Shown: positions 123-58,520 of the stretch, piece after piece | Layout: every line of letters starts with the position of its first letter | How positions within the stretch are numbered: the first letter of the stretch is position 1 | Source of the DNA: Agromyces albus | Lineage (GTDB): Bacteria; Actinomycetota; Actinomycetes; Actinomycetales; Microbacteriaceae | Length of the DNA stretch: 64,000 nt | Assembly (NCBI RefSeq): GCF_004134825.1 | Contig: NZ_SDPN01000001.1 | Location: 124,001 to 188,000 of the forward strand | Reading direction: 5' to 3' | Notes under the pieces: generated by a model | The model's database searches: none | The model's input: only the letters and a program-made list of their open reading frames with translations | Told to the model about the DNA's origin: nothing | Program-made: the position numbers and the translations under genes

Positions 123-1222
123 CGTGCGGCCTCCGCCCCGTCGGTGGCGAGCGGCATCCGTCGTCTCGCCCTGATCGCCCGCCAGAGGGCGATGCGCTGG
201 TCGGCCTTCTCGGTGAACCAGTAGCCGATCGCCGAGCTCAGGAGGATCACCGCCATGAACACCGACCCGACCTCGGTCGGCAGTTGCACGAGCCCGAGCA
301 CTTGCGAACTGCGCTCGACGAAGGCGAGCAGGAACGCGCCGAAGGCCATGCCGATCGGGTGCATCCTGCCGAGCAGCGCGGCCGCGAGTCCCGTGAACAT
401 GAGGTCGATCGGCAGGGTGCCGTCGAAACGATGGGCCGTGCCGAGCACGTGCGGCATGCCGATGAGGCCCGCGATCGCGCCCGAGCCGAGCATCGCCCAG
501 ATGATGCGATGCTTCACCTTGATGCCCGCCGACTCGGCGGCGTCGGGCGAGCGAGCGGCCACCTGCAGCGTGAAGCCGAACACCGTGCGGTACTGAATGA
601 GGTAGAACAGCACGCCGAGCACGATCGCGACGACGAGAAAGCCCGTGATCGCGGTGCGATTGCCGATGCCGAGGTCGACGAGCACCGGCATCGCGCCGTT
701 CTCGTCGATGATCGCCGTGCCGGTGTCCTGACCGCCGCCGGCGCGGAAGACGTTCGCGAGCAGGATGGCCACGACGGTCGTCGCGATCGCGTTCATGAGG
801 ATCGAGGTGATGACCTCGTTCACTCCGCGGTACACCTTGAGCAGCGCGGGCACGAGCGCCCAGAGTGCGCCGGCCACGCTGCCGACCAGCAGCGAGAGCG
901 GCAGCCGCACGGCGAGATCGAACGGGAGCTGCGCGGCCGCGACCGCGCCGGCGAGCGCTGCGACACGGTACTGGCCGTCGATGCCGATGTTGAAGAGTCC
1001 CATGCGAAGAGCGAACGCGGCGGCGATCCCCGCGATATAGAGCGGCACCGCGTTGTTCAGCGCCGACACGAGTGAGGCCGGCTCGATGCCGTAGTTCCAC
1101 ATGACCTCGTAGGCGGATGCCGCGGAGTAGCCGCTGAGGCTGAGGAACAGGGTGGTCACGAGCAGCGCGAGCAGCACCGAGACCACCGGGCCGCTCAGGG
1201 TGAGCACGATGCGTCGGATCAT
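119..1222 (-). CDS. BMP-type (nucleoside-like) ABC transporter permease
   Basis: This 367-residue inner-membrane permease has about nine or ten hydrophobic segments. The stretch GLFNIGIDGQY near residue 75 and GVNEVITSILMN near residue 132 are typical of the BPD_transp_2 permeases that serve simple-sugar and nucleoside ABC importers (NupP/YufP type). The start codon overlaps the end of the ATPase gene by four bases and the stop overlaps the start of the next permease, so ATPase and both permeases form one coupled operon behind the binding protein at 2791-3837. The likely role is to form half of the channel for a purine, nucleoside or related N-heterocycle. The substrate is inferred from the subfamily and the catabolic genes across the divergent promoter. 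Confidence 0.88.
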   Translation of the reverse strand: MIRRIVLTLSGPVVSVLLALLVTTLFLSLSGYSAASAYEVMWNYGIEPASLVSALNNAVPLYIAGIAAAFALRMGLFNIGIDGQYRVAALAGAVAAAQLPFDLAVRLPLSLLVGSVAGALWALVPALLKVYRGVNEVITSILMNAIATTVVAILLANVFRAGGGQDTGTAIIDENGAMPVLVDLGIGNRTAITGFLVVAIVLGVLFYLIQYRTVFGFTLQVAARSPDAAESAGIKVKHRIIWAMLGSGAIAGLIGMPHVLGTAHRFDGTLPIDLMFTGLAAALLGRMHPIGMAFGAFLLAFVERSSQVLGLVQLPTEVGSVFMAVILLSSAIGYWFTEKADQRIALWRAIRARRRMPLATDGAEAAR

Positions 1223-2772: not shown

Positions 2773-2790
2773 GTTCGCGCCCGACCGCGC

Positions 2791-3837: not shown

Positions 3838-3877
3838 ACTGGCTCCTTCTGCTGTGGGGGTCTTCGAGAAGCTACGC

Positions 3878-3893
3878 CGCAAAAGGCTTTGCG
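3878..3893. promoter_or_regulatory. Inverted repeat in divergent region, candidate LacI-type operator
   Basis: Arms CGCAAA and TTTGCG are separated by AGGC, 41 bases upstream of the binding-protein start and within the 199-bp region shared with the LacI regulator at 4037. A symmetric site here would let that regulator control the importer. No other long dyad was seen in the region. Functional assignment is inference. Confidence 0.35.
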
Positions 3894-4028
3894 CGATTTC
3901 ACGGATGTTACATTTCCGATACGTCTGCGGCAACTGTCCTGATATTTCCGGGCAGATCAGACCTGTGGGCCGCGCAGTCGGCACCAGATCGCAGCCCGAG
4001 TGCACAAAACGTTCAGGAGGCGGCTAGC

Positions 4029-4040
4029 ATGCAGGCATGA
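4029..4040 (+). other. Three-codon leader reading frame overlapping the LacI regulator start
   Basis: The strong Shine-Dalgarno sequence AGGAGG at 4015-4020 is 8 bases from an ATG at 4029, but 16 bases from the regulator ATG at 4037. The first ATG opens ATG CAG GCA TGA, and the stop overlaps the regulator start as ATGA. This would make regulator translation depend on reinitiation after a minimal peptide. It may equally be chance. Confidence 0.3.
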
Positions 4041-5050
4041 GCGACGAGAACCGCAAGCCCGCGGCCACGATCCGCGACGTGGCGCGGGTGGCGCAGGTCA
4101 GCATGACGACGGTGTCGCATGCGTTGTCGGCCAAGCGGCCGGTGAGTCCAGAGACCGCTGAGCGGATCCAGGCCGCCATCGAACACCTCGGCTATGTGCC
4201 GAGCTCGGCGGCGAGAAGCCTGCACGCGGGCAAGTCCCTCATGCTGGGGCTCGTCGTGCCCGACGTCTCCGATCCGTTCTTCGGACGCCTCGCTGCGAGC
4301 GTCGAACGTGCAGCCGACGAGGCGGACTACGGCGTCGTGCTGGGCAGCTCGAGCGGAGCCTCGACACGAGAGGCGCGATACTTCAACCTCCTGCGCTCCC
4401 GGTCGATCGACGGACTGATCTACGTGGCCGGCGCCCCGCGGTACGACGATCGGCTCAGCCGGCTCGCGCGGAGACACCCGATCGTGCTCGCCGACGAGTG
4501 GGTCGAGGGGCTCGACGGCATCCCGCTCGCGGCGGCCGACCACGAGCAGGGCGGACGCCTCGCCGCCGAACACCTCGCCGCGCTCGGGCACCGCGATGTT
4601 GCGGTGATCACGGGTCCGCGCGGACTGCGCTCGGCCGACGAGCGGGTCGCGGGATTCCGTTCGGTCTTCCCCGACGCCCGTGTCGTCGACGGCGACTTCA
4701 CCGAAGAGGTCGCCTACCACCGCACCGCGAAGCTGCTCGGGCGGGGCGGCGCCCCGACCGCGATCTTCGCCTCGAACGACCTCTCGGCATTCGGCGTGCT
4801 CGACGCCGCACGCGACCACGGCCTCGTCGTGCCGCGCGACCTCTCGGTCGTCGGCTTCGACGATGTGCCGCTCGCGCAGCGCGTCTCGCCGCCGCTCACG
4901 ACCGTGCGGCAGCCGATCGACGAGATAGGCCGCCTCGCGACCGCGACCCTGTTCGAGGTGATCGCCGGCCGCGATCCCGGCGAGCTCGAGCGCTGCCCCG
5001 TCGAGCTCGTCGTGCGCGAGAGCACCGCCCCATCCGCCCGAACCGACTGA
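4037..5050 (+). CDS. LacI family transcriptional regulator
   Basis: The 337-residue protein has the LacI helix-turn-helix at residues about 10-60 (TIRDVARVAQVSMTTVSHAL, then the hinge GYVPSSAARSL), followed by a periplasmic-binding-protein-like effector domain (LMLGLVVPDVSDPFF near residue 70, VVGFDDVPLAQ near 273). It sits divergent from the BMP-type importer and nine bases before the first catabolic gene, so the obvious role is repression of both units until the substrate or a breakdown product binds. Its own start overlaps a three-codon leader frame. Confidence 0.93.
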   Translation: MSDENRKPAATIRDVARVAQVSMTTVSHALSAKRPVSPETAERIQAAIEHLGYVPSSAARSLHAGKSLMLGLVVPDVSDPFFGRLAASVERAADEADYGVVLGSSSGASTREARYFNLLRSRSIDGLIYVAGAPRYDDRLSRLARRHPIVLADEWVEGLDGIPLAAADHEQGGRLAAEHLAALGHRDVAVITGPRGLRSADERVAGFRSVFPDARVVDGDFTEEVAYHRTAKLLGRGGAPTAIFASNDLSAFGVLDAARDHGLVVPRDLSVVGFDDVPLAQRVSPPLTTVRQPIDEIGRLATATLFEVIAGRDPGELERCPVELVVRESTAPSARTD

Positions 5051-5059
5051 AGGAGCCAC

Positions 5060-5815
5060 GTGGCCCGCGTCCTGCTCATCGGCGAATCCTGGTTCGTCCA
5101 TTCCATCCACCAGAAGGGCTTCGACTCGTTCACGACGTCGGAGTACACGCTCGGCGGAGCGGAGTTCGTCGCGGCCCTCCAGGCGCACGGGCATGAGGTC
5201 ACCCATGTGCCGGCACACGAGGTGCCCACTCGCGTTCCCACCACGATCGAGCTGCTGCAGTCGATCGCCGACGTCGTCGTGATCTCGGATGTCGGTGCGA
5301 ACACGTTCCAACTGCCGCCGCAGACCTTCTCGGCGTCGATCGCCGAGGTCGACCGCACCGAGGTGCTGCGCGCCTTCACCGAGCGCGGCGGGGGACTGCT
5401 CATGGTGGGCGGATACATGACGTTCTCGGGCATCGACGCCAAGGCGCGCTGGGGCCGCACGCCGCTCGCGGAGGCACTGCCGGTCACGCTCCTCGACCGC
5501 GACGACCGGGTCGAGCTTCCGTCGGGGATGCTCCCCCGGGTCGCCGCGGCACACCCGATCACGCGCGGCCTCGACGCGGAGTGGCCCGCCCTGCTCGGGC
5601 TCAACGAGGTGAAGCTGAAGGAGACGGCCGTCGGCTTGGCGACGTGCGCGGGGCATCCGCTGCTCGCCGTCGGCCTGTACCGCGCGGGCCGCGCCGCCGC
5701 GTTCACCTCAGACCTCGCGCCGCACTGGGCGCCGCCCGCCTTCCTGACCTGGAGCGGCTACGGCACGCTCTTCGATCGCACCATCCGCTGGCTCGCAGGA
5801 GAGGAACTGCCGTGA
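5060..5815 (+). CDS. GATase1-like (PF07090-type) protein
   Basis: The 251-residue protein starts with GTG at 5060, with AAGGAG just upstream. Features such as LIGESWFVHSIHQKGFDSF at the N-terminus, VPAHEVPTRVPT near residue 55 and VVISDVGANTFQLPP near residue 75 resemble the putative glutamine amidotransferase family, a class I GATase-like fold without an established reaction. I see no convincing Cys-His-Glu triad of a working amidotransferase. It is co-transcribed with the regulator upstream and overlaps the amidohydrolase downstream (GTGA), so it probably acts in the same pathway. Exact role unknown. Confidence 0.75.
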   Translation: MARVLLIGESWFVHSIHQKGFDSFTTSEYTLGGAEFVAALQAHGHEVTHVPAHEVPTRVPTTIELLQSIADVVVISDVGANTFQLPPQTFSASIAEVDRTEVLRAFTERGGGLLMVGGYMTFSGIDAKARWGRTPLAEALPVTLLDRDDRVELPSGMLPRVAAAHPITRGLDAEWPALLGLNEVKLKETAVGLATCAGHPLLAVGLYRAGRAAAFTSDLAPHWAPPAFLTWSGYGTLFDRTIRWLAGEELP

Positions 5816-7221
5816 CCGACGCCACCACCATCGACACCGTGATCACGGGAGCGACCGTGCTCTCGCACACGACCCGCCCCGCGCCCGACTACCCCTCGTT
5901 GCCGCGCGACGATCGCGAGGCCCGGGGCACCGCCGTCTTCCTGCCCGACCACGCGATCGGCATCGCCGATGGTGCGATCGCCTGGGTCGTGCCGACGAGC
6001 GAGGTCGACGCGGCGTCGCTCGCGGGGGCGACCGTGATCAACGCCCAGGGGCAGGTGGCGATTCCCGGCCTCATGAACTCGCACACCCACTCGCCGATGA
6101 CGATGTTCCGCGGCTCGGCAGAGGATGTGCCGACGAACGAGTGGTTCAACAAGCACATCTGGCCGATGGAGGTGAACCTCACCGATCGCGACGTCGCACT
6201 CGGCGCACAGCTCGCGATCGGCGAGATGCTCCTCGCCGGCGTGACGAGCTTCGCCGACCACTACTTCGCGACCGACCGCATCGCCGAGGCCGTCGAGGCG
6301 AGCGGGGCACGGGCCCTGCTCGCCTCGACGTTCTTCTCGTCGGAGGGCGCAGAGGGAATGCGCAGGTCTGCCGAGTTCGCCGAACGCTGGAACGGCGCCG
6401 CCGACGGTCGCATCACGACCGCGATGGGTCCGCATGCCACCTACACGGTCGACGACGCCGACCTCGAGCAGACCGCCGAGCACGCGCGGCGACTCGGGGT
6501 GCGCACGCACATCCACGCCTCCGAGGCGCCGGCCCAGACGGCGTCGAGCCTCGCCCGGCGCGGCGTCACGCCGATCCAGGTGCTGCACGACACGGGCATC
6601 CTCGAGACCGGGGCGATCATCGCCCATGGCGCCGGCATCATCGAAGACGACCTGCGGTGGCTCGTGCCGTTCGCCGATCGCGTGGCCGTGGCATCCTGCA
6701 GCAAGGTCTACCTGAAGCACGCCCAATCGGGCGGCACCCCCGTGCGGATGCTGCACGACGCGGGCATCACCGTGGGCGTCGGCACCGACGGACCCGCCTC
6801 CCACAACACCCTCGACGTGCTCGAGAGCATGCGGTTCCTCTCGCTCGTGCAGAAAGACGTGCACAGCGACGCCACATGGCTCACCTCCCAGCACGCGCTC
6901 GACCTTGCCACACGGCAGAGCGCCGACGCGTTCGGCCTCGGCGGCCGGCTCGGGCAGTTGCGCCCCGGATACCGCGCCGACATCGTGCTCATCGACACCA
7001 TGGGGCCTCACATGCAGCCGATGCACGACCTCGCGGCTGCGCTCGTCTTGAGCGTCAAGTCGAGCGATGTGCGCACGGTGCTCGTCGACGGCCGGGTCGT
7101 CGTCGAGAACGGGCGGCTGACGACGATCGACGTGAGCGGGGCCATCGAGGAGCTGAACCGGCGCATCCCCGAGCTCACCGACACCTCGCACGGCAGCGCG
7201 ATCCAGGACTACGCGCCGTGA
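5812..7221 (+). CDS. Amidohydrolase, ATZ/TRZ (SAH/MTA deaminase-like) family
   Basis: The 469-residue metal-dependent hydrolase starts at the GTG at 5812, which overlaps the previous stop; the frame is open further upstream but that part lies inside the previous gene. Metal-ligand motifs are present in order: HTH at residues 91-93, HIH at 233-235, AHGAG with His272, and GTDGPASHN with Asp326. This layout is that of deaminases and dechlorinases acting on purine, pyrimidine or triazine rings. Neighbours are a BMP-type importer and a creatininase-family hydrolase, which suggests that an imported ring compound is deaminated here and opened by the next enzyme. The substrate cannot be read from the sequence. 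Confidence 0.9.
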   Translation: MTDATTIDTVITGATVLSHTTRPAPDYPSLPRDDREARGTAVFLPDHAIGIADGAIAWVVPTSEVDAASLAGATVINAQGQVAIPGLMNSHTHSPMTMFRGSAEDVPTNEWFNKHIWPMEVNLTDRDVALGAQLAIGEMLLAGVTSFADHYFATDRIAEAVEASGARALLASTFFSSEGAEGMRRSAEFAERWNGAADGRITTAMGPHATYTVDDADLEQTAEHARRLGVRTHIHASEAPAQTASSLARRGVTPIQVLHDTGILETGAIIAHGAGIIEDDLRWLVPFADRVAVASCSKVYLKHAQSGGTPVRMLHDAGITVGVGTDGPASHNTLDVLESMRFLSLVQKDVHSDATWLTSQHALDLATRQSADAFGLGGRLGQLRPGYRADIVLIDTMGPHMQPMHDLAAALVLSVKSSDVRTVLVDGRVVVENGRLTTIDVSGAIEELNRRIPELTDTSHGSAIQDYAP

Positions 7222-47970: not shown

Positions 47971-48687
47971 GTGTACGAGACAGCGGGCCCCGCCGTGGAT
48001 GATGAGCGCACGAACCTCGCGGCTGCCGACGGGCCGCCCGCCCTCGCCGTGCCGTACGACGCGACGCATCTCGGCGCGAAGCCGCTTCGCACCGAGCGCA
48101 TGGTGCTCCGACCGCTCCTGCCGACCGACGCCGACGATGTCTACGAGTACCAGCGACTGCCCGAGGTGCTGCGGTTCATCCCGTGGCCGGAGCGTGACCG
48201 CGAAGAGGGCCGCCAGCACACCGAGAAGCGCGCCGCCTGGCGCACGATCGCCGACGACGATGACGCGCTGATCTTCGCGATGGTGCTCGTGGGTGAGCCA
48301 TCGGTTTCGTTCTCGCGCGAAGGCGTCAGGGGCGACCGCGTCATCGGCGACCTGATGGTGCGCGTGTCGAGTGCGGAGCATGCGCAGGTCGAGATCGGAT
48401 GGGTGCTCCATCCCGCCTTCCAGGGCCGCGGCCTTGCGTTCGAGGGCGCGCGCGAGGTGTTGCGATTCGCGTTCGAGTCGCTCAACGCCCACCGCGTGCA
48501 GGCCCTGCTCGCATCACGCAACCTCGCTTCGGCGGCACTCTGCGAGCGCCTCGGAATGCGTCGCGAGGGAACGATGGTCGAAGAGGAGTACCACTACGGC
48601 GAGTGGGAGGACACCGCGGTCTACGGCATCCTGCGGCGCGAGTGGGCCGCCGCCGCCGACAGCGCAACCGCCGCACGACTCAGTTGA
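47971..48687 (+). CDS. GNAT family N-acetyltransferase (RimJ/RimL type)
   Basis: The 238-residue protein has a variable N-terminus of about 45 residues, then LRTERMVLRPLLPTDADDVYEYQ, the usual start of RimJ/RimL-like enzymes, EIGWVLHPAFQGRGLAFEGARE with the acetyl-CoA loop near 150, and ALLASRNLASAALCERLGMRREG near 185. The GTG start is supported by a -10 box. The upstream frame overlaps hemA and is not coding. Its end overlaps the convergent ccdA gene by eight bases. Confidence 0.87.
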   Translation: MYETAGPAVDDERTNLAAADGPPALAVPYDATHLGAKPLRTERMVLRPLLPTDADDVYEYQRLPEVLRFIPWPERDREEGRQHTEKRAAWRTIADDDDALIFAMVLVGEPSVSFSREGVRGDRVIGDLMVRVSSAEHAQVEIGWVLHPAFQGRGLAFEGAREVLRFAFESLNAHRVQALLASRNLASAALCERLGMRREGTMVEEEYHYGEWEDTAVYGILRREWAAAADSATAARLS

Positions 48688-49420
48688 ACCCGAGGAACTC
48701 CTCGAGCCGCGCGATCGGCTCGTACCAGCCGAGATCGAGGATGAGGGCCTGCAGTTGCTTGTCGAGGCCCGCGACGACCGCGACGCCGACGAGGATGAAC
48801 ACGACGCCGATGGTGCGCCGGAACCATCCGTTGGGGTTCGCGAGCCAGCCGAGCCGCCGCACGAAGGCGCGCCCGAGGAGCGCGATGAGCAGCAGCATCC
48901 CGGCGAGGCCGACCGCGTAGGCCACGACGTAGCCGAGCCCTTCGCCGAACGAGACGGGCAGCACCGCCGCGACGATGAGGGCGTAGGTGGGGCTGCAGCT
49001 GCTGAACACCGGCCCGAGCGCCGCGCCGGTGAGAATGTCGCCGGCCACGCTCTGCCGCCGCACCGATCGATCGAGCATCTCGCCGCTGCGCGACTGCAGG
49101 CGGAGCGCGCTCGAGAGTCGATCCCAGAGGACGGGGAAGATCAGGTCGACGCCGAGCAGGATGATGATGCCGCCGGCGATCACCTGCCAGACCTGCGGGG
49201 GAATGCCGAGCAACGCGGTCGTCGCCTTCAGCAGCAGGGTGAAGACCACGACGCTCACCGCGAGCGAGCCCGCGATGACGAAGGGACGCCATTGGGCACG
49301 CCGTTCGTCGCCGTCGCGCACGATCGAGCCGCCGATGATCACGGGCAGGAGCGGCAGCACGCACGGGGCGGCGACCGTCAGCACGCCGGCGGCGAGGGCG
49401 AGGAAGAGCGAGGCGGTCAT
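48680..49420 (-). CDS. ccdA: CcdA-type thiol-disulfide transporter (cytochrome c biogenesis membrane protein)
   Basis: The 246-residue membrane protein has six helices. The conserved LTVAAPCVLPLLPVIIGG at the start (first cysteine-proline motif) and GPVFSSCSPTYALIVAAVLPV near residue 135 (second cysteine) are hallmarks of the CcdA/DsbD membrane domain, which passes electrons from cytoplasmic thioredoxin outward. The start overlaps the stop of the thioredoxin-like lipoprotein gene. The pair should form a local extracytoplasmic thiol-reduction system. Confidence 0.9.
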   Translation of the reverse strand: MTASLFLALAAGVLTVAAPCVLPLLPVIIGGSIVRDGDERRAQWRPFVIAGSLAVSVVVFTLLLKATTALLGIPPQVWQVIAGGIIILLGVDLIFPVLWDRLSSALRLQSRSGEMLDRSVRRQSVAGDILTGAALGPVFSSCSPTYALIVAAVLPVSFGEGLGYVVAYAVGLAGMLLLIALLGRAFVRRLGWLANPNGWFRRTIGVVFILVGVAVVAGLDKQLQALILDLGWYEPIARLEEFLGFN

Positions 49421-49923
49421 GGGCCCGCGGCGACGAGCGAGGCGACCGACGGCTCGTCGTAGATCACGGCGCTCGAGAGCATCTCGCCGGCGTCGTCGAC
49501 GTAGACGACGGTCGTCTGCAGGGTGACGCCGTAGCGCTGGCGCAACTCGGTCATGCTGTCGTAGTCGACCTTGATGACGGTGAGCCCGTCGGGCACGCCC
49601 TGGGTGCGCAGCTCCTCGTCGAGGGCGCGGCACTGCGGGCACCAGCTCGCGTGGAAGAACAGCGCCTTCTGGCCGGGGGTCGTCGCGATGACGTCGTCGG
49701 TGTAGTCGACGTAGGCGCCCGGGGCATCCGCCGCCGGTTCCTCGGTCGGCTCCTCGGTCGGCTCAGCGGTGGGCTCGTCGGTCATCGGCTCGTCGGTCAT
49801 CGGCGATTCCGTCATCGGCGCCGTGGTGGCGGGCGCCTCGGTGCCGCCCGCACACCCTGCGAGCGTGAATGCGGCGAGCGCGATCGCGATCATCGCACCG
49901 GTCGTTCGTGCCTGCTGCAGCAT
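49417..49923 (-). CDS. Thioredoxin-fold lipoprotein
   Basis: The 168-residue lipoprotein has a signal peptide ending in the lipobox TLAGC (Cys24). A linker of Pro, Thr, Glu and Met with near-repeats (SPMTDEPMTDEP and EPTEEPTEEP, about residues 38-63) precedes a thioredoxin domain with the WCPQC active site near residue 93. A short C-terminal half lacks the full fold length. It is coupled to ccdA downstream, which probably reduces it. Targets outside the cell are unknown. Confidence 0.87.
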   Translation of the reverse strand: MLQQARTTGAMIAIALAAFTLAGCAGGTEAPATTAPMTESPMTDEPMTDEPTAEPTEEPTEEPAADAPGAYVDYTDDVIATTPGQKALFFHASWCPQCRALDEELRTQGVPDGLTVIKVDYDSMTELRQRYGVTLQTTVVYVDDAGEMLSSAVIYDEPSVASLVAAGP

Positions 49924-50046: not shown

Positions 50047-51432
50047 CTACGCGCCGACGAGTCGCGACGCGAGGTATCCCTGCAGCTCGGCGAGCGGCAC
50101 GCGCTCCTGCTGCATGGAGTCGCGGTCGCGCACCGTCACCGCGTTGTCATCGAGCGAGTCGAAGTCGACGGTGATGCAGAACGGCGTGCCGATCTCGTCT
50201 TGACGACGGTAGCGGCGTCCGATGGCGCCCGCATCGTCGAAGTCGACGTTCCAGTTCTGCCGAAGGGATGCCGCGACCTCGCGAGCGAGCGGCGAGAGCC
50301 GTTCGTTGCGCGACAGCGGGAGCACCGCGGCCTTCACCGGAGCGAGGCGCGGGTCGAGGCGGAGCACCGTGCGGGTGTCGACGCCGCCCTTCGCGTTCGG
50401 CACCTCTTCGACGTCGTAGGCGTCGATGAGGAAAGCCATGAGCGCTCGAGTGAGGCCGAACGCGGGCTCGATGACGTAGGGGGTCCAACGCTCGTTCTTC
50501 GACTGGTCGAAGTAGGAGAGGTCTTTGCCCGAGTGCTTCGAGTGGGTGGAGAGGTCGAAGTCGGTGCGGTTCGCGACGCCCATGAGCTCGCCCCACTCGC
50601 CGCCGGTGAACCCGAAGCGGTACTCGATGTCGATCGTGCGCTTCGAGTAGTGCGACAGCTTGTCTTTCGGGTGTTCGAAGTAGCGGATGTTGTCGGGCTT
50701 GAGGCCGAGGCCCGTGAACCAGTCCCAGCAGTGCTGGATCCAGTAGTCGAACCACTCCTCGTCGGTGCCGGGCTCGACGAAGTACTCCATCTCCATCTGC
50801 TCGAACTCGCGCGTGCGGAAGATGAAGTTGCCGGGCGTGATCTCGTTGCGGAAGGACTTGCCGATCTGGCCGATGCCGAACGGCGGCTTCATGCGCGCCG
50901 TCTGCAGCACGTTCGCGAAGTTCACGAAGATGCCCTGCGCCGTCTCGGGGCGGAGGTAGTGCAGGCCGGCCTCGTCTTCGACCGGGCCGAGGTAGGTCTT
51001 CAAGAGGCCCGAGAATGCGCGCGGCTCGGTCCACTGGCCGCGCGTGCCGCAGTTCGCGCACGCGATCTCGGCGAGGCCGCCGACGGGCTCGCGGCCCTTC
51101 TTCTCCTCGAACTCCTCGATGAGGTGGTCTTCGCGGTAGCGCTTGTGGCATTGCAGGCACTCGACGAGCGGGTCGCTGAAGACCTCGACGTGACCGGATG
51201 CCTCCCACACCTGCCGAGGCAGGATGACGCTCGAGTCGAGCCCCACGATGTCGTCACGGCTCTGCACCATGTAGCGCCACCACTGACGCTTGATGTTCTC
51301 CTTGAGCTCCACGCCGAGGGGCCCGTAGTCCCACGCCGAGCGGGATCCGCCGTAGATCTCGCCGGCTTGGAAGACGAAGCCCCGGTGCTGGGCGAGGGTG
51401 ATGACAGAATCGAGACGGCTGGGTGCGGCCAC
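50047..51432 (-). CDS. glyS: Glycyl-tRNA synthetase (single-chain, class II)
   Basis: The 461-residue enzyme is the alpha-dimer type used by actinobacteria. Class II features include motif 1 around [24 protein letters not shown] near the N-terminus, a zinc-type Cys cluster (CLQCHKRY and CANCGTRG near 85-130), motif 2 ([25 protein letters not shown] in pieces near 195) and the C-terminal anticodon-binding domain. The start is a GTG with GGAG upstream. It charges tRNA-Gly and stands as a single gene. Confidence 0.96.
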
Positions 51433-51612: not shown

Positions 51613-52920
51613 GTGTGGGATTTCCTGCTCGACGTGAACGTGATCGACGGTCCGTTCATCGTGGTCATGTACGGGCTGAGCGCGCTCGTGGCGATCTACC
51701 TGCTCGGCCGCGAGGCATCCGTATCCTGGGGGCTCACGGCGATCGTGCTGATCATCGTCGGCGCGATGGTCGGCGCGGGCGTGCTGTGGGCCGCGGTATA
51801 CGTGCTCAACTGGTTCGGCGGGCCCGTGACGGATGCCGCGTGGTTCTGGGTTCCAGCGGTGTTCGCCGGCGTCTTTCTCGCGATCTGGAACCTGTGGTTC
51901 ACCCGGTGGTGGCGCAAGCTCGTCGCGATGCTCGCGATCCCGATCTTCGCGCTGACCGCCGTGTTCGGCATCAACGCGGCATACGGACTGAACACGACGC
52001 TCGGGGCGATGATCGATGCCTCCACTCTCCGCTCGATCGATCCGGAAGCCCCGGACCCGGCCGTGGCCGACCCTGTCGACCCCCTCTACCTCACGTGGCT
52101 CGCGCCGGAGGGGATGCCGGCCAAGGGCGAGATCGGGACCGTCGCGGGCGGGATCCCGAACACGAACTCGGGGTTCCCCGCCCGGGCGGCGCAGCTCTAC
52201 CTGCCGCCGGCAGCCCTGGTCGACGACGCCCCCCGGCTGCCCCTCGTGATCATGATGATGGGCCAGCCGGGCGGTCCCGACGCGACCTTCATCGCCTCGG
52301 TGCTCGACGAATACGCCGCGCAGCACAACGGCCTCGCGCCGATCGCCCTCGTCGTCGACCAACTCGGCGACCCGACCGAGGACCCGCTGTGCCTCAACAC
52401 GGATCGCGGCAACGCCGAGACCTACGTGATGGGCGACGTGGTGCCCTGGGCGATCCAGGAGCTGAACGTGCTGCGAGGGCGCCAGTTCTGGACGGTCGCG
52501 GGCTACTCCAACGGCGGCCAGTGCGCGGCGTACTTCGGCTCGAAGTACTTCGAGACCTTCGGCAACATCCTCGCGATCTCCCCCGAGGAATTCGCCGGCG
52601 CCGAGCACGCCGACGAGGTGCTCGACACGATCTTCGGTGGCGACCAGGCGGCCTACGACTTCGTGAAGACGACGAGCATCATGGCGGCGAAGGCACCGTA
52701 TCCCGACACGACGGCGATCTTCACGGTCGGTGCGAATGACGAGGGCTTCGGCCCCGGAACACAGCGGCTGGCGGATGCCGCGGCGCTGGCCGGCATGCGC
52801 ACGACCTACTTCGCCGTGCCGGATGCCGACCATGGCGTGAGCGGCTTGAACGGCGGCCTGCAGAAGGGCTTCGAGGTGCTCTACCCGCGGCTCGGACTCG
52901 CAGCACCTCCACCGGCTTAG
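51613..52920 (+). CDS. Membrane-anchored alpha/beta hydrolase (esterase-type)
   Basis: The 435-residue protein starts at a GTG after GCGAGGGGG. Four membrane helices at about residues 12-125 precede a linker and a hydrolase domain facing outside. The nucleophile elbow is GYSNGG with Ser299, and DADHG carries the likely catalytic His407; GDVVPWAIQEL precedes the elbow as in antigen-85/esterase D-like hydrolases. Ten bases separate it from a DUF2156 aminoacyl-lipid synthase gene. The context suggests that it hydrolyses aminoacylated lipids or transfers acyl groups in the envelope. Confidence 0.82.
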   Translation: MWDFLLDVNVIDGPFIVVMYGLSALVAIYLLGREASVSWGLTAIVLIIVGAMVGAGVLWAAVYVLNWFGGPVTDAAWFWVPAVFAGVFLAIWNLWFTRWWRKLVAMLAIPIFALTAVFGINAAYGLNTTLGAMIDASTLRSIDPEAPDPAVADPVDPLYLTWLAPEGMPAKGEIGTVAGGIPNTNSGFPARAAQLYLPPAALVDDAPRLPLVIMMMGQPGGPDATFIASVLDEYAAQHNGLAPIALVVDQLGDPTEDPLCLNTDRGNAETYVMGDVVPWAIQELNVLRGRQFWTVAGYSNGGQCAAYFGSKYFETFGNILAISPEEFAGAEHADEVLDTIFGGDQAAYDFVKTTSIMAAKAPYPDTTAIFTVGANDEGFGPGTQRLADAAALAGMRTTYFAVPDADHGVSGLNGGLQKGFEVLYPRLGLAAPPPA

Positions 52921-52930
52921 GAGTGCACGC

Positions 52931-55495
52931 ATGAGCGACACCGATCGCGTCGCGGAGTCGGCGGGCGGCCCGGCCGAGGCCGATGTCGAGCCCGCCGGCC
53001 GGCTCCGCTCGACCGCGTCGGCGATCGCCGGATTCGCGAAGCGGGTTCCGTTCAGCCTCACCTTCGCGGTGCTCCTCGTCGCCACGGCGGTGACCACGGG
53101 TTCGATCTTCGGCGCCGCGAGCGCGAACACCGAGTCGACCTGGGCAGCCGGTGTCGGCACGACGATCGAGCGCGGGCACTGGTGGAGCGTGCTCACAGCG
53201 CTCGCCATCCCCGAGGATCCGTTCCAGCTCGTGGCCGGCGTGGTGCTCGCGGCGACCCTGCTCGGCATCGCCGAGCTCCGGCTCGGCACCGCGCGGGCGA
53301 TCCTCGCGTTCATGGTCACGGGCGTCATCGGCGTGACCATCGGCGTGCTGCTGCAGTGGATCGGCAGCCTCGCCGGCGAATGGTGGGCGACGGGCACCTC
53401 GGTCGACCTCACGCTCGATCCGCTGACGGGCATCGTCGGCGCGCTCATCACCGCCACGGCGTTCATGACGGCGCTCTGGCGCCGACGCATCCGTATCGTC
53501 GCCTTCGCCTTCGTGCTCGTGTTCGTGCTCTACGACGGTGACTCCTCGAACGTCTACCGGCTGATTGCGGGCCTCGCCGGACTCGCGCTCGGCGCGGTGC
53601 TCGCCCGCAGTCCGTCGCCGCTGGCACCTCGCCGCAGCTCGCACCGGGAGACGCGCACCCTCATCGCGACGGCGGTGGCGATCACGGCGATCGGCCCGAT
53701 CGTGTCACTCATCAACGGCGAGGAGCTCACGCCGTTCGCGTTCTCGGCGAGCCTCTTCGGCGCCGACGTGCCCGACTCCGACGCCGTGCTCGCCGAGTGC
53801 GCGAGCGTCGCCTCCGCGTTCTGCGACCGGCAGCTCGCACTGCTGAGCGCGCAGGGGCCCGGCGTCATCCTGCTCTCGTTCCTGCCGCTCGTGCTCCTGC
53901 TGCTCGCGGCGTGGGGGCTGCGGAACGGCCGGCGCTTCGCGCTCATGCTCGCCGTCGCGGTGAACATCGCGCTCGCCCTGCTGGCGTGGTTCTCGTTCGA
54001 CCTCGCGGCGACGATCGCCGACGGCGAGGAGTGGACCGGCTTCGACGTCGGCGAGCTCATCGTCTGGACGGTCGCCGCCGTGCTGCTGCCGGTCGTCATG
54101 GCGTTGGTGCTGCTCGTGTTCCGGCGGCAGTTCGCCATTCGTGCCCCGAACCGCGCCGTTGCGCGCTTCACGAGCGTGGTGGCCGGCTCGTTCGTGGTGC
54201 TCGCCGGCGCGTATCTCATCACCGCGCTCGTGACGATCGAGGAGTTCGTTCCGGATGCCACGCCGCTCGACGTGCTCATCGACACCGTCAAGCGGTTCGT
54301 GCCGGTGCACTTCGTGGCCGCGTTCGACCCGATCGTCGTGCCCGTGCACGACGTCACGTTCGTGCTGTACCAGCTCGTCGGGCCGCTGTTCTGGGCGATC
54401 TTCGTGATCGCCGCCGTGCCCTTCCTGTCGGCGACGGCCGATCGCTCGCATGCGCGCGACCGCGCCCGCGTGCTCGCGAACCTGCAGCGCGGCGGCGGCG
54501 GTTCGCTCGGCTTCATGGCGACCTGGCCGGGCAACGACTACTGGTTCAGCGACGACGAGCAGGCCACGGTGGCCTACCGCGTGGTGAACGGCATCGCGAT
54601 CACGATGTCCGACCCGATCTGCCCCGAGGGGCGCGATGCGCAGACGATCCGCGAGTTCGCAGCGTTCTGCGACCGCAACAGCTGGGTGCCCGTGTTCTAC
54701 AGCGTGCACGACCGCTACCTGCCGGTGTTCGAGGCGCTCGGCTGGCAGCACATGCCGGTCGGCGAGGAGACCGTGGTGGCGACGACCGGTCTCGAGCTCA
54801 CGGGCAAGCCGTGGCAGAAGGTGCGGCAAGCGCTCAACCGCGGCATCAAGGAGGGCCTCACGACAGTGTGGACGACGTGGGACGAGCTCCCGATCGCGAC
54901 GGTCGCCGAGATCAACGCGATCTCGGAGGAGTGGGTCGCCGAGAAGGAGCTGCCCGAGATGGGCTTCACGCTCGGCGGCATGGAGGAGCTGAAAGACCCC
55001 GAGGTGCGGCTCATGCTCGCGGTCGGCCCCGACGGGCGACCGCAGGCCGTGACGAGCTGGCTGCCGACGTACCGCGAGGGCGTGCCGATCGGCTGGACGA
55101 TCGACTTCATGCGCCGAGCCGACGGCTCGATGAACGGCGTGATGGAGTTCCTCATCGCCTCGGCGGCGCTGCACATGAAAGAGGAGGGCGCCGAGTTCCT
55201 GAGCCTCTCGGGCGCTCCGCTCGCGACGAAGCCGCTCGCTCCCGGCGAGGAGCCGCCGCCCGCGACGGTGATGACCCGCTTGCTCGACTGGCTCGGCAAG
55301 ACCCTCGAGCCCGCCTACGGCTTCACGTCCCTCTTCCGCTTCAAGGCCAAGTTCAATCCCGAGTACCACACCATCTCGATGGCCTATCCCGATCCGCTCG
55401 CCCTGCCCGCGATCGGCGTCGCGATCGGCCGCGCGTACCTCCCCGAGGTGTCGCCGAGAGAGGCAGTCGCGCTCGTGCGCACCCTCACCAGGTAG
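52931..55495 (+). CDS. Aminoacyl-phosphatidylglycerol synthase-like protein with rhomboid-like membrane part (DUF2156)
   Basis: The 854-residue protein starts at an ATG after AGGAG. Residues about 40-235 form helices resembling a rhomboid fold (GHWWSVLTALAI, LTGIVGALI) but without the catalytic GxSG. More helices run to about 505. The cytoplasmic C-terminal half (FMATWPGNDYWFSDDEQATVAYRVVNG near 530, WQKVRQALNRGIKEGL near 630, YGFTSLFRFKAKFNPEYH near 795) is the LPG_synthase_C/DUF2156 domain of MprF. It should transfer an amino acid from tRNA to phosphatidylglycerol or diacylglycerol. The amino acid cannot be predicted. Confidence 0.87.
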   Translation: MSDTDRVAESAGGPAEADVEPAGRLRSTASAIAGFAKRVPFSLTFAVLLVATAVTTGSIFGAASANTESTWAAGVGTTIERGHWWSVLTALAIPEDPFQLVAGVVLAATLLGIAELRLGTARAILAFMVTGVIGVTIGVLLQWIGSLAGEWWATGTSVDLTLDPLTGIVGALITATAFMTALWRRRIRIVAFAFVLVFVLYDGDSSNVYRLIAGLAGLALGAVLARSPSPLAPRRSSHRETRTLIATAVAITAIGPIVSLINGEELTPFAFSASLFGADVPDSDAVLAECASVASAFCDRQLALLSAQGPGVILLSFLPLVLLLLAAWGLRNGRRFALMLAVAVNIALALLAWFSFDLAATIADGEEWTGFDVGELIVWTVAAVLLPVVMALVLLVFRRQFAIRAPNRAVARFTSVVAGSFVVLAGAYLITALVTIEEFVPDATPLDVLIDTVKRFVPVHFVAAFDPIVVPVHDVTFVLYQLVGPLFWAIFVIAAVPFLSATADRSHARDRARVLANLQRGGGGSLGFMATWPGNDYWFSDDEQATVAYRVVNGIAITMSDPICPEGRDAQTIREFAAFCDRNSWVPVFYSVHDRYLPVFEALGWQHMPVGEETVVATTGLELTGKPWQKVRQALNRGIKEGLTTVWTTWDELPIATVAEINAISEEWVAEKELPEMGFTLGGMEELKDPEVRLMLAVGPDGRPQAVTSWLPTYREGVPIGWTIDFMRRADGSMNGVMEFLIASAALHMKEEGAEFLSLSGAPLATKPLAPGEEPPPATVMTRLLDWLGKTLEPAYGFTSLFRFKAKFNPEYHTISMAYPDPLALPAIGVAIGRAYLPEVSPREAVALVRTLTR

Positions 55496-55513: not shown

Positions 55514-58390
55514 TCAGGGAATGGTCGTGGCGGAGAGGTCGTCGTAGCTGACGATGACGGGGCCGTTCGTCGCCGACGAGCTCAGGTACGTGCTGAAGCG
55601 CAGGCTCCCCGGACTCTGCAGGGCCGCCGTGGCATCCGTCGCCGTGAACTGCCACGCCGACGGCTCAGTCGCACTCGCCAACCACGCCCGGGCGCGGATC
55701 GTGGTGGGGTTGGTGCCCTCGACCTGCACCCGCAGCCGCACCTGCGTGCCCGCAGCCACGGTGATCCCCGACAACGTGCCGCCCGACAGGGCCGTGCTGT
55801 CACGCACGACGTGCAACACCACCGAGCCGTTCGGGTTCACCCGTACACGTGCGCCGTACAACGACGCGCCCACCGCCCGCCCGGCGACGGTCGCATTGAG
55901 CACCTGGTTCGGAAGCTTGTCCACCGCGAGGCTCGTCTGCACATCGATCGCCGACGACGAAACCTGGCCCAGCGACGCATTGAGCGTCGACCCCGCATTC
56001 GCCGAGACCCGGCCCGCGCCGCCCGAGACCGAGAACTTCGTCGTCGAGTTCACCGACCAGGGCCCACCGGTCTCGGCCGAACCCCACCCCGACGCCACCG
56101 TTCGACCGAACGCATCGGCCGCCAGCACGCCTGCCACCGGCGGCTGCGACACCGTCACCGACTGGGTGACGCTGTGCGAGGCGCCGTCGTCGTCGGTCAC
56201 GGTCAGGGAGACCGGGTAGGTACCCGCGGCGGAGTAGGTGTGCGATGCGGTGATCCCAGTCCCACCGGACTGGCCGCCGAAGTCCCACGACCTCGACACG
56301 ATGGTGCCGTCCGAGTCCGTCGACGACGACGAGTTCGCGTTCACGGTCAGCCCGTCGGCCGACCACGTGAAGGCGGCCGTCGGCGGCACGTTCGCCGGCG
56401 GTGGCGGTGGCGGCGGCCCGCCGATGGTAGTGGCGGTGAGGTCGTCGTAGCTGACCACGACCGGGCCATTCGTCGCCGACGAGCTCAGATACGTGCTCAA
56501 GCGCAGGCTCCCCGGACCCTGCAGGGCCGCGGTCGTGTCGGCCGCGGTGAACTGCCACGCCGACGGCTCGCTCGTGCCGACCCGCCACGCTCGGGCACGG
56601 ATCGCCGTGGGGTTGGTACCCACGACCTGCACCCGCACCCGCATCTGCGTGCCCGCGGCCACCGTCACGCCCGCCAACGTACCGCCCGACAAGGCGGTGG
56701 CGTCGCGCACGATGTGCAGCTGCACCGAGCCGTTCGGGTTCACCCGCAGTCGGGCGCCGTAGAGCGACGCGCCGACCACGCGCCCCGCGACGGTCGCATT
56801 GAGCAACTGGTTCGGAACCTTGTCGACCGCGACGCTCGCGTGCGCGTCGATCGCCGACGACGACACCTGACCGAGAGACGCATTCAGCGTCGACCCCGCA
56901 TTGGCCGCGACCCGCCCAACGCCGCTCGCGACCGAGAACTTGGTCGTCGAGTTCACCGACCAGGGCCCACCGGTCTCGGCCGAACCCCACCCCGACGCCA
57001 CGGTGCGACCGAACGCATCCGCTGCCAGCACGCCTGCCGGCGGCGGCTCCGACACCGTCACCGACCAGGTCGGACCGCGCGTCACGCTCGTGCCATCGTT
57101 CACAGTCGCATACCAATCGAAGACGGTCCCGGGGGCGAGCTCCGGAAGTGGAACGGAGCCGGACGCGCCCGAAGCCACCGTCTGCACGCCCAGTTGCGGC
57201 AGGGCGGGCGGCGCCGCCATCTCATAGGCCACGGCGAAGGAACTGTCGGCGTCTGTCTCGTACTGGTTGAGCCACGGCGAGTAGGTCGTCGCCCGGATCT
57301 CGTTGGCGGCGGGGGTGAACGTGTAGTAGCGCAGCCAACCGTCGCCGCCGTTCGGCCTCCCCTGGAAGTCCGAGAGGGCTGCGTGCACAGGCTTGCCGCA
57401 CGCGTTCGGATCGGTGCGGTTCGCCTCACCGTCGAGTCCCTGCGTGAAGTGCCCGTTGACCACGAGGAAGATGTTGCAGTTGGGATAGACGAGCTTCTGC
57501 CAGATCGCGGCACCGCTGTTGCCCGGGACATCCGTGCGCTGCACTTGTGCGCTGTGCTCCCCGGCGACGTTCACATACGCGTGCGTGGCGACGATCGCCC
57601 GCCGTGCCGGGTGGGCATCGAGCACGCGTTGCGCCCACGCCAGCACCCCGTCGGGGGCGTTGAGCTCGATGTTCACGAGAAGGAAGTCCAGTCCTCCTGC
57701 CGTGAACAGCGCGTAGTTGTTCATGTTCTGCCGGTCGGCGGCGTCGACCCCGAACTGGTTCTGCCCGTAGTACCCGCCATACGACGCGGCGGGTGAGTTC
57801 CAGGACGCATCGCGGTAGCGGCTCACGGGGAGGTACTGGTTGTACTTGCTGAAGTCGCCTGTGGTGAGGTCGAAGTCGTGGTTGCCCGGGAGCACGGAGT
57901 TCGGCACCCCGCCGGCGTCCATGATCGCGAGGTTGTCCGACGCGCGCACCCAATCCTCGTCTGACGTGTGGTTGTCGACGATGTCGCCCACGCCCGCGAC
58001 GAACGCCATGTCGAGGGCGTTGCGCTGGGCGACGATCCACTGCATCTGCGCCGTCATGACATGGTTGAAGGTCGGCTCGATGACGTAGTTCTGCGTATCA
58101 GGGAGCACGACGAACGTGAAGGGGTCGCCGACACCCGGAGGCGGAGTGGCTGGACGCGGCGCTCCGTGGAACGCGACCTGCAGCGAGGCGTCGTCGGGGT
58201 CGCTCACCTGGACGGTGAGCGGTGTTCCGGACGGTGCGGTCGCCCCGTTGGCCGGCGAGACGAGCACTGGCGCCGCCGGTGGGGCACCCGCCGCGAATGC
58301 CGCGGTCGGGATCGATGCCGCACCGATGGCGAGCACGAGCGCGGCTGTGATCGCAGTGGCGCGGATGCGCATGATCGAGCGGGTTCGCAT
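55514..58390 (-). CDS. Secreted metallophosphoesterase with duplicated C-terminal modules and a PKD domain
   Basis: The 958-residue protein starts at the ATG at 58390 with GGAGG before it. A Sec signal peptide (ITAALVLAIGAASIPTAAFA in part) leads to a calcineurin-like domain with VVLPDTQNY, GVGDIVDN, LPGNHDFD and VNGHFTQG (about residues 85-370). Two copies of a beta-sandwich module of about 205 residues, some 84 percent identical by eye, flank a PKD domain (PTAAFTWSADGLTVN, WDFG). There is no cell-wall anchor, so it is probably released. Phosphodiesterase or nucleotidase activity is expected from the motifs. It converges on the DUF2156 gene. Confidence 0.88.
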   Translation of the reverse strand: MRTRSIMRIRATAITAALVLAIGAASIPTAAFAAGAPPAAPVLVSPANGATAPSGTPLTVQVSDPDDASLQVAFHGAPRPATPPPGVGDPFTFVVLPDTQNYVIEPTFNHVMTAQMQWIVAQRNALDMAFVAGVGDIVDNHTSDEDWVRASDNLAIMDAGGVPNSVLPGNHDFDLTTGDFSKYNQYLPVSRYRDASWNSPAASYGGYYGQNQFGVDAADRQNMNNYALFTAGGLDFLLVNIELNAPDGVLAWAQRVLDAHPARRAIVATHAYVNVAGEHSAQVQRTDVPGNSGAAIWQKLVYPNCNIFLVVNGHFTQGLDGEANRTDPNACGKPVHAALSDFQGRPNGGDGWLRYYTFTPAANEIRATTYSPWLNQYETDADSSFAVAYEMAAPPALPQLGVQTVASGASGSVPLPELAPGTVFDWYATVNDGTSVTRGPTWSVTVSEPPPAGVLAADAFGRTVASGWGSAETGGPWSVNSTTKFSVASGVGRVAANAGSTLNASLGQVSSSAIDAHASVAVDKVPNQLLNATVAGRVVGASLYGARLRVNPNGSVQLHIVRDATALSGGTLAGVTVAAGTQMRVRVQVVGTNPTAIRARAWRVGTSEPSAWQFTAADTTAALQGPGSLRLSTYLSSSATNGPVVVSYDDLTATTIGGPPPPPPPANVPPTAAFTWSADGLTVNANSSSSTDSDGTIVSRSWDFGGQSGGTGITASHTYSAAGTYPVSLTVTDDDGASHSVTQSVTVSQPPVAGVLAADAFGRTVASGWGSAETGGPWSVNSTTKFSVSGGAGRVSANAGSTLNASLGQVSSSAIDVQTSLAVDKLPNQVLNATVAGRAVGASLYGARVRVNPNGSVVLHVVRDSTALSGGTLSGITVAAGTQVRLRVQVEGTNPTTIRARAWLASATEPSAWQFTATDATAALQSPGSLRFSTYLSSSATNGPVIVSYDDLSATTIP
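55520..56145. repeat. Intragenic repeat, C-terminal module copy
   Basis: About 626 bases repeated at 56423-57048 with a constant offset of 903 bases. The stretch around 56041-56120 is almost identical to that at 56944-57023. Confidence 0.85.
56423..57048. repeat. Intragenic repeat, N-terminal module copy
   Basis: Partner of the repeat at 55520-56145. The 277 bases between the copies encode the PKD domain. Confidence 0.85.
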
Positions 58391-58520
58391 CGAGTAACCT
58401 CCAGAGGGAGATACGACGCTGGGTGACTGGAGCCTATCACCGAAGCACCCCTGTTCGTGAGGATTCGTCATGTTCGCCTGCCCCCCGTTGTGGGCGCCGG
58501 ATCGTGTCTCGATGCTCACT

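Follow-up and report, generated by a model that had tools for sequence, protein, structure and literature searches.

A predicted rhomboid fold in an aminoacyl-lipid synthase paired with a membrane-anchored esterase in Agromyces albus

Enzymes of the MprF type have been studied for both making and flipping charged lipids, and in C. glutamicum the synthase AlaDAGS is reportedly linked to PesT, said to be an esterase, in work ascribed to Smith et al. 2015. A C. glutamicum double-mutant strain lacking pesT and alaDAGS is named in PMC10580965, which also gives six predicted transmembrane (TM) helices for AlaDAGS and LysX of C. pseudotuberculosis. For the MprF of R. tropici, PMC8131360 places Subdomain 1 at residues 24-325 and Subdomain 2 at 334-530, and describes Subdomain 1 of S. 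aureus MprF as required for efficient translocation. Synthases of this kind also occur with hydrolases: lpiA and acvB of Agrobacterium form an operon in which AcvB is a soluble periplasmic hydrolase (PMC13197417), and Enterococcus AhyD is co-induced with mprF2 (PMC13123819). Here, we describe a hydrolase gene and a DUF2156 synthase gene at positions 51613 to 55495 of the window, the whole 64,000-nucleotide stretch of DNA from the soil bacterium Agromyces albus that was analysed (contig NZ_SDPN01000001.1, positions 124,001 to 188,000; genome 4.29 Mb, 111 contigs, completeness 99.98%). The two proteins probably form a module for tRNA-dependent lipid aminoacylation and de-aminoacylation, and the synthase, on the evidence of its model and of profile comparisons, belongs to a branch of the MprF superfamily that bears a rhomboid fold.

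51613..52920, plus strand: hydrolase gene, encoding a membrane-anchored esterase/hydrolase of 435 amino acids (GTG start)
52931..55495, plus strand: synthase gene, encoding a DUF2156 aminoacyl-lipid synthase of 854 amino acids
52920..52923, plus strand: GGAG, ribosome-binding-site-like, overlapping the hydrolase stop codon and 7 nucleotides 5' of the synthase ATG

Only 10 bp separate the hydrolase stop codon (52918-52920) from the synthase ATG at 52931, and the coordinates, strand and 10-base spacing given by an earlier sequence-only reading of this DNA are correct on the sequence. The closest named loci are from Agromyces, with Agromyces sp. ISL-38 showing identities of 93% for the synthase and 81% for the hydrolase.

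Build of the synthase and its rhomboid-fold domain

The AlphaFold2 model of the synthase, computed from 81 sequences (predicted local distance difference test, pLDDT, 89.7; 81-98 per ten-residue block over residues 21-240), consists of a rhomboid fold at residues 38-228, a second membrane domain at about 236-505 and a C-terminal transferase, with about 12 TM helices by reading of the model.

53042..53614, plus strand: rhomboid-fold domain (residues 38-228) without catalytic residues, from structure, hhalign and Pfam PF01694
53423..53425, plus strand: Leu165 codon, in place of the rhomboid catalytic Ser
53558..53560, plus strand: Arg210 codon, in place of the rhomboid catalytic His
53636..54445, plus strand: second membrane domain (about residues 236-505), matching MprF Subdomain 2 (TM9-14) by structural alignment with 6lvf (236..837 to 339..860, root-mean-square deviation (rmsd) 8.1)
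54482..55387, plus strand: LPG_synthase_C/DUF2156 tandem GNAT-like transferase (residues 518-819), Pfam E 1e-82, predicted cytosolic

The transferase places the protein by domain in the MprF-type aminoacyl-lipid synthase superfamily (PF09924, 278 bits vs a cut-off of 27.5); its solved relatives are A-PGS (4v34), L-PGS and MprF, and the A. albus genome encodes a single PF09924 gene. The positive-inside pattern predicts both termini on the inside: across the close synthase alignment (A3, 81 rows), basic residues exceed acidic ones on 7/7 predicted inside segments, and acidic exceed basic ones on 6/6 outside segments. The predicted cytosolic location of the transferase fits its presumed use of aminoacyl-tRNA. 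In addition, Cys290 and Cys298 (window positions 53798-53824) are invariant in 81/81 rows on a predicted outside loop, where they could form a disulfide.

From about residue 236 onward, the synthase aligns through the transferase onto MprF (6lvf 339-860, 9goe 356-872, 9j8s 355-870), starting at residue 236, 240 or 241 with 6lvf, 9j8s and 9goe, respectively, and continuing through 837. The NCBIfam model bifunc_MprF (NF033480) matches residues 383-830 to model positions 414-833 with 170.5 bits vs a cut-off of 600, and Subdomain 2 of bifunctional MprF is thus recognised by sequence in its later part and by structure at an rmsd of 8-10. Because the residues from about 236 onward align to Subdomain 2 and the transferase, the rhomboid domain takes the place of MprF Subdomain 1. 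The flippase domain PF03706 gave no match in the synthase protein at E<=1 and none in the genome at E<=0.001, in a search that detects this domain in 11 of 14 genomes used as controls.

Several comparisons relate the N-terminal domain to rhomboids. In the model, residues 38-228 superpose on E. coli GlpG (5f5k) with Z 17.5 and rmsd 3.0 over 170 aligned residues of 178, and on the pseudoproteases iRhom1 (Z 16.8) and iRhom2 (Z 15.3). A profile of the domain (73 rows retained) aligned by hhalign with 27 genuine rhomboids from 25 genomes gave E 1.7e-5 and probability 78 over 54 columns, vs E 0.19-0.44 and probability <1 for three other segments used as controls. PF01694 matches 16 of 32 rows of the domain at E<0.01 (best 3.6e-6), and a six-frame search of 25 genomes with it recovered four proteins with the same rhomboid, second domain and DUF2156 build above the curated cut-off. 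The domain of the window alone reaches E 0.0032 and 18.1 bits, below the cut-off of 22.6 bits, the whole synthase merely E 0.65 against Pfam Rhomboid, and 9 of 26 full-length relatives match that model at E<=0.1. A PDB search with the domain profile placed GlpG on top at a weak E of 0.007, and no rhomboid was among the best 50 Foldseek matches listed for the synthase model. The concordance of the relatives' domains, the controlled profile-profile comparison and the fold rules out a chance resemblance; as modelled, residues 38-228 adopt a six-helix rhomboid fold and resemble rhomboids beyond chance. The sequence-only reading had called for a structure prediction of residues 40-235, which yields this fold at 38-228, and its description of a rhomboid-like membrane part devoid of the catalytic serine holds in the model, with the histidine lost as well.

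The active site was aligned with 10 of the 27 genuine rhomboids; L207 and L208, which show weak partial rhomboid matches, were omitted from one such alignment. Leu165 occupies the place of the catalytic Ser (LDPLTG vs VGASGA), and the window reads VYRLIA where genuine rhomboids have QAHLGG, placing Arg210 at the catalytic His. This Arg is present in 81/81 close rows and in 23/26 rows of a wider alignment (A1: the window plus 25 rows from the 29 further synthase loci L033-L061, with L047, L048, L054 and L057 omitted). No row combines Ser165 with His210 (0/81 close, 0/26 wider), and the five close rows with Ser at column 165 all have Arg at the His column; the synthase does not have the GxSG Ser and TM6 His of an active rhomboid protease. 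The Ser column was first set at Val169, an assignment overturned in favor of Leu165 by the genuine rhomboids and by a shorter sister form of the synthase. Structural motifs of rhomboids are retained in the close rows (Glu115 81/81, Gly119 78/81, Trp85 78/81), and 81/81 also have Asp163, which lies two residues ahead of the position of the lost Ser.

When 71 DUF2156 domains, among them 17 of the 81 close and 10 of the 26 wider rows, were placed in a maximum-likelihood tree, 60 rhomboid-bearing domains were separated by a 100/100 branch from 11 others, namely two LysX-like and nine short actinobacterial synthases; knowledge of LysX and AlaDAGS substrates is therefore not simply transferable. Thirteen short synthases align by hhalign with the second domain of the window (E 8e-8) and hardly with its rhomboid domain (E 0.011, probability <4), as do two LysX-like synthases (E 4e-5 and probability 70 vs E 0.12 and probability <4); both kinds show a Subdomain-2-like part alone, without a detectable rhomboid. 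The sister form, examined in 29 shorter rhomboid-DUF2156 proteins picked from search rows rather than at random, has 139-211 amino acids between the two domains, and 26 of the 29 form one group in the tree (100/99). As in active rhomboids, the Ser at the GxSx place and the TM6 His are present in 21/29 (L192-L197, L199-L201, L209-L211, L213-L217, L220-L223), and such fusions are possibly active intramembrane proteases joined to an aminoacyl-lipid synthase. A hydrolase domain occurs in the fetched stretch, which differs in length between loci, of 3/29 short forms (L203, L224, L225), none of which has the Ser-His dyad; in L224 and L225 it lies just downstream of the short-type synthase, whose rhomboid has the Ser but Arg for His. 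The contrast between the two forms in dyad and hydrolase amounts to a single comparison rather than several.

The hydrolase and its conserved pairing with the synthase

The hydrolase has four TM helices by hydropathy and likewise in its AlphaFold2 model (50 sequences as input; pLDDT 95.1, predicted template modelling score 0.92). Two alignments were used for its conserved residues: a family alignment of 24 rows (A2: the window plus 23 rows from the 29 further hydrolase loci L003-L031) and a synthase-linked alignment of 50 rows (A4: the window and 49 others, with L141, at 88 bits, omitted).

Hydrolase residues 14-124 and about 173-426: TM helices and alpha/beta-hydrolase domain, respectively, with the N-terminus and the catalytic domain predicted outside
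52507..52509, plus strand: codon of the catalytic nucleophile Ser299 (GYSNGG), in 24/24 family and 50/50 synthase-linked rows
52738..52740, plus strand: codon of the triad residue Asp376, in 24/24 family and 49/50 synthase-linked rows, with a gap in the remaining one
52831..52833, plus strand: codon of the triad residue His407, in 24/24 family and 49/50 synthase-linked rows, with a gap in the remaining one

The protein combines a match to Pfam Esterase PF00756 (24.6 bits vs a cut-off of 22; E<=0.1 in 24/24 family rows) with a Ser-Asp-His triad, and is thereby a PF00756 esterase. Its active site is predicted to lie outside because of the positive-inside pattern: Lys and Arg residues average 2.4 and 3.3 on the two predicted inside loops, compared with 0.3 for the N-terminus and 0.1 for the outside loop (50 rows). 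The multi-helix esterase with an extracytoplasmic Ser-His site that had been read from the sequence is thus recovered with four helices, a conserved triad and a predicted outside orientation. In addition, Cys260 and Cys304, both predicted outside, are present in 50/50 synthase-linked rows and may form a disulfide. The best solved folds for the model are feruloyl esterases, and esterase D/S-formylglutathione hydrolases are also among the matches.

Pairing of the two genes was assessed from profile and frame matches, gene calling having recovered the hydrolase family in only 28 loci. Across 120 genomes of the family, the hydrolase was matched in 46 and the synthase in 52, with 45 holding both, one the hydrolase only, seven the synthase only and 67 neither (Fisher p 2.5e-24, kinship ignored). 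A hydrolase match lies within 2.5 kb of 38 of the 50 near-full-length synthase matches in these genomes, window included, and in 36 of those 38 pairs it is upstream on the same strand. Among 80 named GTDB synthase loci, a hydrolase frame is adjacent in 50, lying upstream in 36, downstream in 12 and on the opposite strand in two (one of these, L141, is a weak 88-bit partial frame). An absence of conserved pairing, which the sequence-only reading had named as an outcome that would refute it, was accordingly not observed.

The association extends across the class. Among 296 genomes, the hydrolase profile matched in 94 and PF09924 in 152; in a comparison using the 150 rows listed for each of the two profile searches, a hydrolase lies within 3 kb of 49 of the 150 DUF2156 places among the matches listed (on the same strand in 23), where about 0.3 would be expected. 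Different kinds of synthase take part, including rhomboid-bearing, LysX-like and short ones. At L142, L143 and L204 the hydrolase frame is directly upstream of a rhomboid-bearing synthase, beside short synthases in the loci examined it is divergent or on the same strand, and at L145 (positions 1974-6779) the open frame of a hydrolase relative comes immediately after a DUF2156 frame of LysX size. Among the matches listed, nine further genomes carrying the family label of L145 (f10) have a hydrolase with the same strand and spacing. On the Arthrobacter sp. StoSoilB13 record NZ_AP024648.1 (1186121-1188611), 58 bp separate a hydrolase of 47% identity from a DUF2156 synthase match, and the module may travel on plasmids, as this record belongs to a plasmid collection. 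The sequence-only reading placed such pairs in a few Gram-positives, a range that is too narrow in view of the Agrobacterium lpiA-acvB operon and of the DUF2156-hydrolase neighbours in many actinobacterial genomes. Collectively, these genomic comparisons support the hydrolase and the synthase as a conserved unit.

The proposed module and its alternatives

In the module that we consider probable, the cytosolic DUF2156 domain would take an amino acid from an aminoacyl-tRNA, as its family suggests, and esterify it to an inner-leaflet lipid, presumably phosphatidylglycerol (PG) or diacylglycerol. The aminoacylated lipid would then move to the outer leaflet, where the hydrolase would cleave the aminoacyl ester and reset the lipid, a step suggested by the conserved pairing and by characterised synthase-hydrolase pairs. 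By computed fold and domain order, the membrane part of the synthase is a chimera that keeps the MprF Subdomain-2-like half and has a rhomboid fold without catalytic residues in place of the flippase half. Computed support for this scheme comes from the domain folds, the predicted topology, the triad, the loss of rhomboid catalytic residues and the pairing. The sequence-only reading proposed that one protein could attach an amino acid to a lipid and its partner could remove or transfer it outside, as a reversible charge switch; the synthase machinery for lipid aminoacylation and the predicted outside esterase site agree with the first part, and the switch presupposes that the lipid is anionic, like PG. 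Known actinobacterial enzymes also aminoacylate neutral diacylglycerol (PMC10580965), so a change of surface charge is no more than a possibility.

Several observations weigh against this scheme. The pairing is incomplete: 30 of the 80 named loci, among them Herbiconiux, Rathayibacter and several Leifsonia, have no adjacent hydrolase (one of them, L064, is at a contig edge), and 12 near-full-length synthase matches, spread over nine of the 120 family genomes, are unpaired. Eight of these nine genomes carry a hydrolase elsewhere, though a paired synthase is present as well in five of them; a pair is lacking altogether in four genomes, three of which still carry a hydrolase. A genome of the same genus (G079) has the hydrolase beside glyS without an adjacent synthase, and the pairing counts are non-independent, since related species share pairs. 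The esterase fold is common to feruloyl esterases and esterase D, and the substrate of the hydrolase therefore cannot be read from its fold. Over the membrane part, the alignments onto MprF are loose (rmsd 8-10), and three of six full-length MprF rows (7duw, 7f47, 9j8q) begin within Subdomain 1.

Two alternatives concern the relation between the genes. The extracytoplasmic partner could be a transferase that moves the aminoacyl group from an outer-leaflet lipid, serving as carrier, to a cell-wall or membrane glycopolymer, as in the D-alanylation of teichoic acids or in the antigen 85 mycolyltransferases, which are members of PF00756. The PF00756 match and a membrane-anchored catalytic domain predicted to face the wall would suit this, and the anatomy of the hydrolase suits either reaction; however, hydrolytic esterases are the best fold matches, and the characterised partners of DUF2156 synthases are, as far as is known, hydrolases (AcvB, PMC13197417; AhyD, PMC13123819), making a transferase unlikely. 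Alternatively, the genes might be neighbours merely through shared descent of a glyS locus, with unrelated functions. Local synteny does exist: glyS is near the synthase in 26 of the 80 relatives' loci, in two orientations, and hemA is also near in 13 of those 26. Yet the two genes are also paired where glyS is absent, with the hydrolase upstream or downstream or with the genes convergent or divergent, and other families of the class show the pairing too, far above chance; this renders the explanation highly improbable.

The remaining alternatives concern what the rhomboid domain does. It may have been recruited as a lipid translocator in place of Subdomain 1, using the membrane-thinning fold with Arg210 and Asp163 in the former active site, after which the hydrolase would reset the lipid, and the Ser-His sister form would be an active intramembrane protease fused to a lipid-aminoacylating enzyme. 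This extended proposal is tentative and, taken as a whole, rather unlikely. In its favor are the place of the rhomboid in the domain order and the lack of a PF03706 match in the genome, and rhomboids, pseudoproteases included, are described as thinning the bilayer, with GlpG holding phosphatidylethanolamine and PG (PMC12615303, PMC8641752). Against it, synthases without a detectable rhomboid also adjoin hydrolase relatives. Moreover, aminoacyl-diacylglycerol may cross the membrane unaided, and most known pseudorhomboids are protein-binding. The domain could instead serve in regulation or protein binding, like iRhoms and derlins, by recruiting or controlling the synthase or a different membrane protein without moving lipids. 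Known rhomboid pseudoproteases bind protein clients (PMC12615303), and the LysX-like and short synthases beside hydrolase relatives indicate that the module works without a rhomboid, whereas the position of the domain at the place of Subdomain 1 and the PF03706 result speak against a purely regulatory part. Such a role is a serious possibility that we nevertheless hold short of probable.

The divergent gene upstream of the hydrolase reads as glyS, which may point to glycine as the amino acid donated or simply reflect synteny; given that hemA travels along in 13 of 26 loci, glycine was kept as a lead only. For four long synthases with a rhomboid that come from other families (L142, L143, L204, L205), glyS was found in none of the fetched stretches.

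50047..51432, minus strand: glyS, glycyl-tRNA synthetase by reading of the protein, divergent and upstream of the hydrolase, link uncertain
48680-49923: DsbD/CcdA-like membrane protein and thioredoxin-like lipoprotein, by reading of the proteins, noted alongside the possible disulfides of synthase and hydrolase
55514-58519, minus strand: large secreted protein, convergent with the synthase, by eye with a calcineurin-like phosphatase, PKD-like and repeated C-terminal domains

The last of these proteins had no blastp match at E<=1e-20 among the frames of the 80 relatives' loci, and promoter, terminator and Rfam scans gave no matches.

Comparison with known systems

Among the papers listed by searches of open literature, outside which most subscription papers lie, none connects a rhomboid domain to DUF2156 or to aminoacyl-lipid synthesis, in keeping with the earlier remark that a rhomboid-like module in this role is not well described; PMC6656915 mentions rhomboid and MprF-like proteins as separate proteins. 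If the swap of Subdomain 1 for a rhomboid fold is functional, it would give rhomboid pseudoproteases a bacterial role in lipid biology, represent a second solution to aminoacyl-lipid translocation and provide a natural test of whether membrane thinning by rhomboids can move lipids.

The synthase resembles MprF (R. tropici 6lvf/7duw, P. aeruginosa 9goe) in its C-terminal DUF2156 transferase and, more loosely, in the Subdomain-2 half, but has no PF03706 match and carries a rhomboid fold where MprF has Subdomain 1. With LysX it shares DUF2156 and a Subdomain-2-like membrane part, and a hydrolase directly follows the LysX-like gene at L145, the one such locus examined in detail; unlike LysX, it ends at 854 amino acids after DUF2156 without a lysyl-tRNA synthetase domain, and the two LysX-like proteins lack a rhomboid and fall outside its group (100/100). 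C. glutamicum AlaDAGS with PesT is likewise an actinobacterial DUF2156 synthase reportedly linked to an esterase gene, whereas the synthase of the window has about 12 TM helices vs six in the related C. pseudotuberculosis enzymes. AcvB/PA0919 and AhyD provide the parallel of an aminoacyl-PG hydrolase linked to an aminoacyl-lipid synthase, although AcvB is soluble and periplasmic and the hydrolase described here is a PF00756 enzyme anchored by four TM helices. The rhomboid domain has the six-helix fold of GlpG, iRhom and derlins and retains both the E...G motif that follows TM2 and the loop motif W..LT, but it lacks the catalytic Ser and His and is fused to a lipid-modifying transferase. Synthase-hydrolase pairs are therefore of a known kind (AhyD, AcvB, PesT-AlaDAGS), here extended beyond the small number of characterised examples to a module that recurs in actinobacteria, and the rhomboid half is, as far as the open literature searched shows, the new part.

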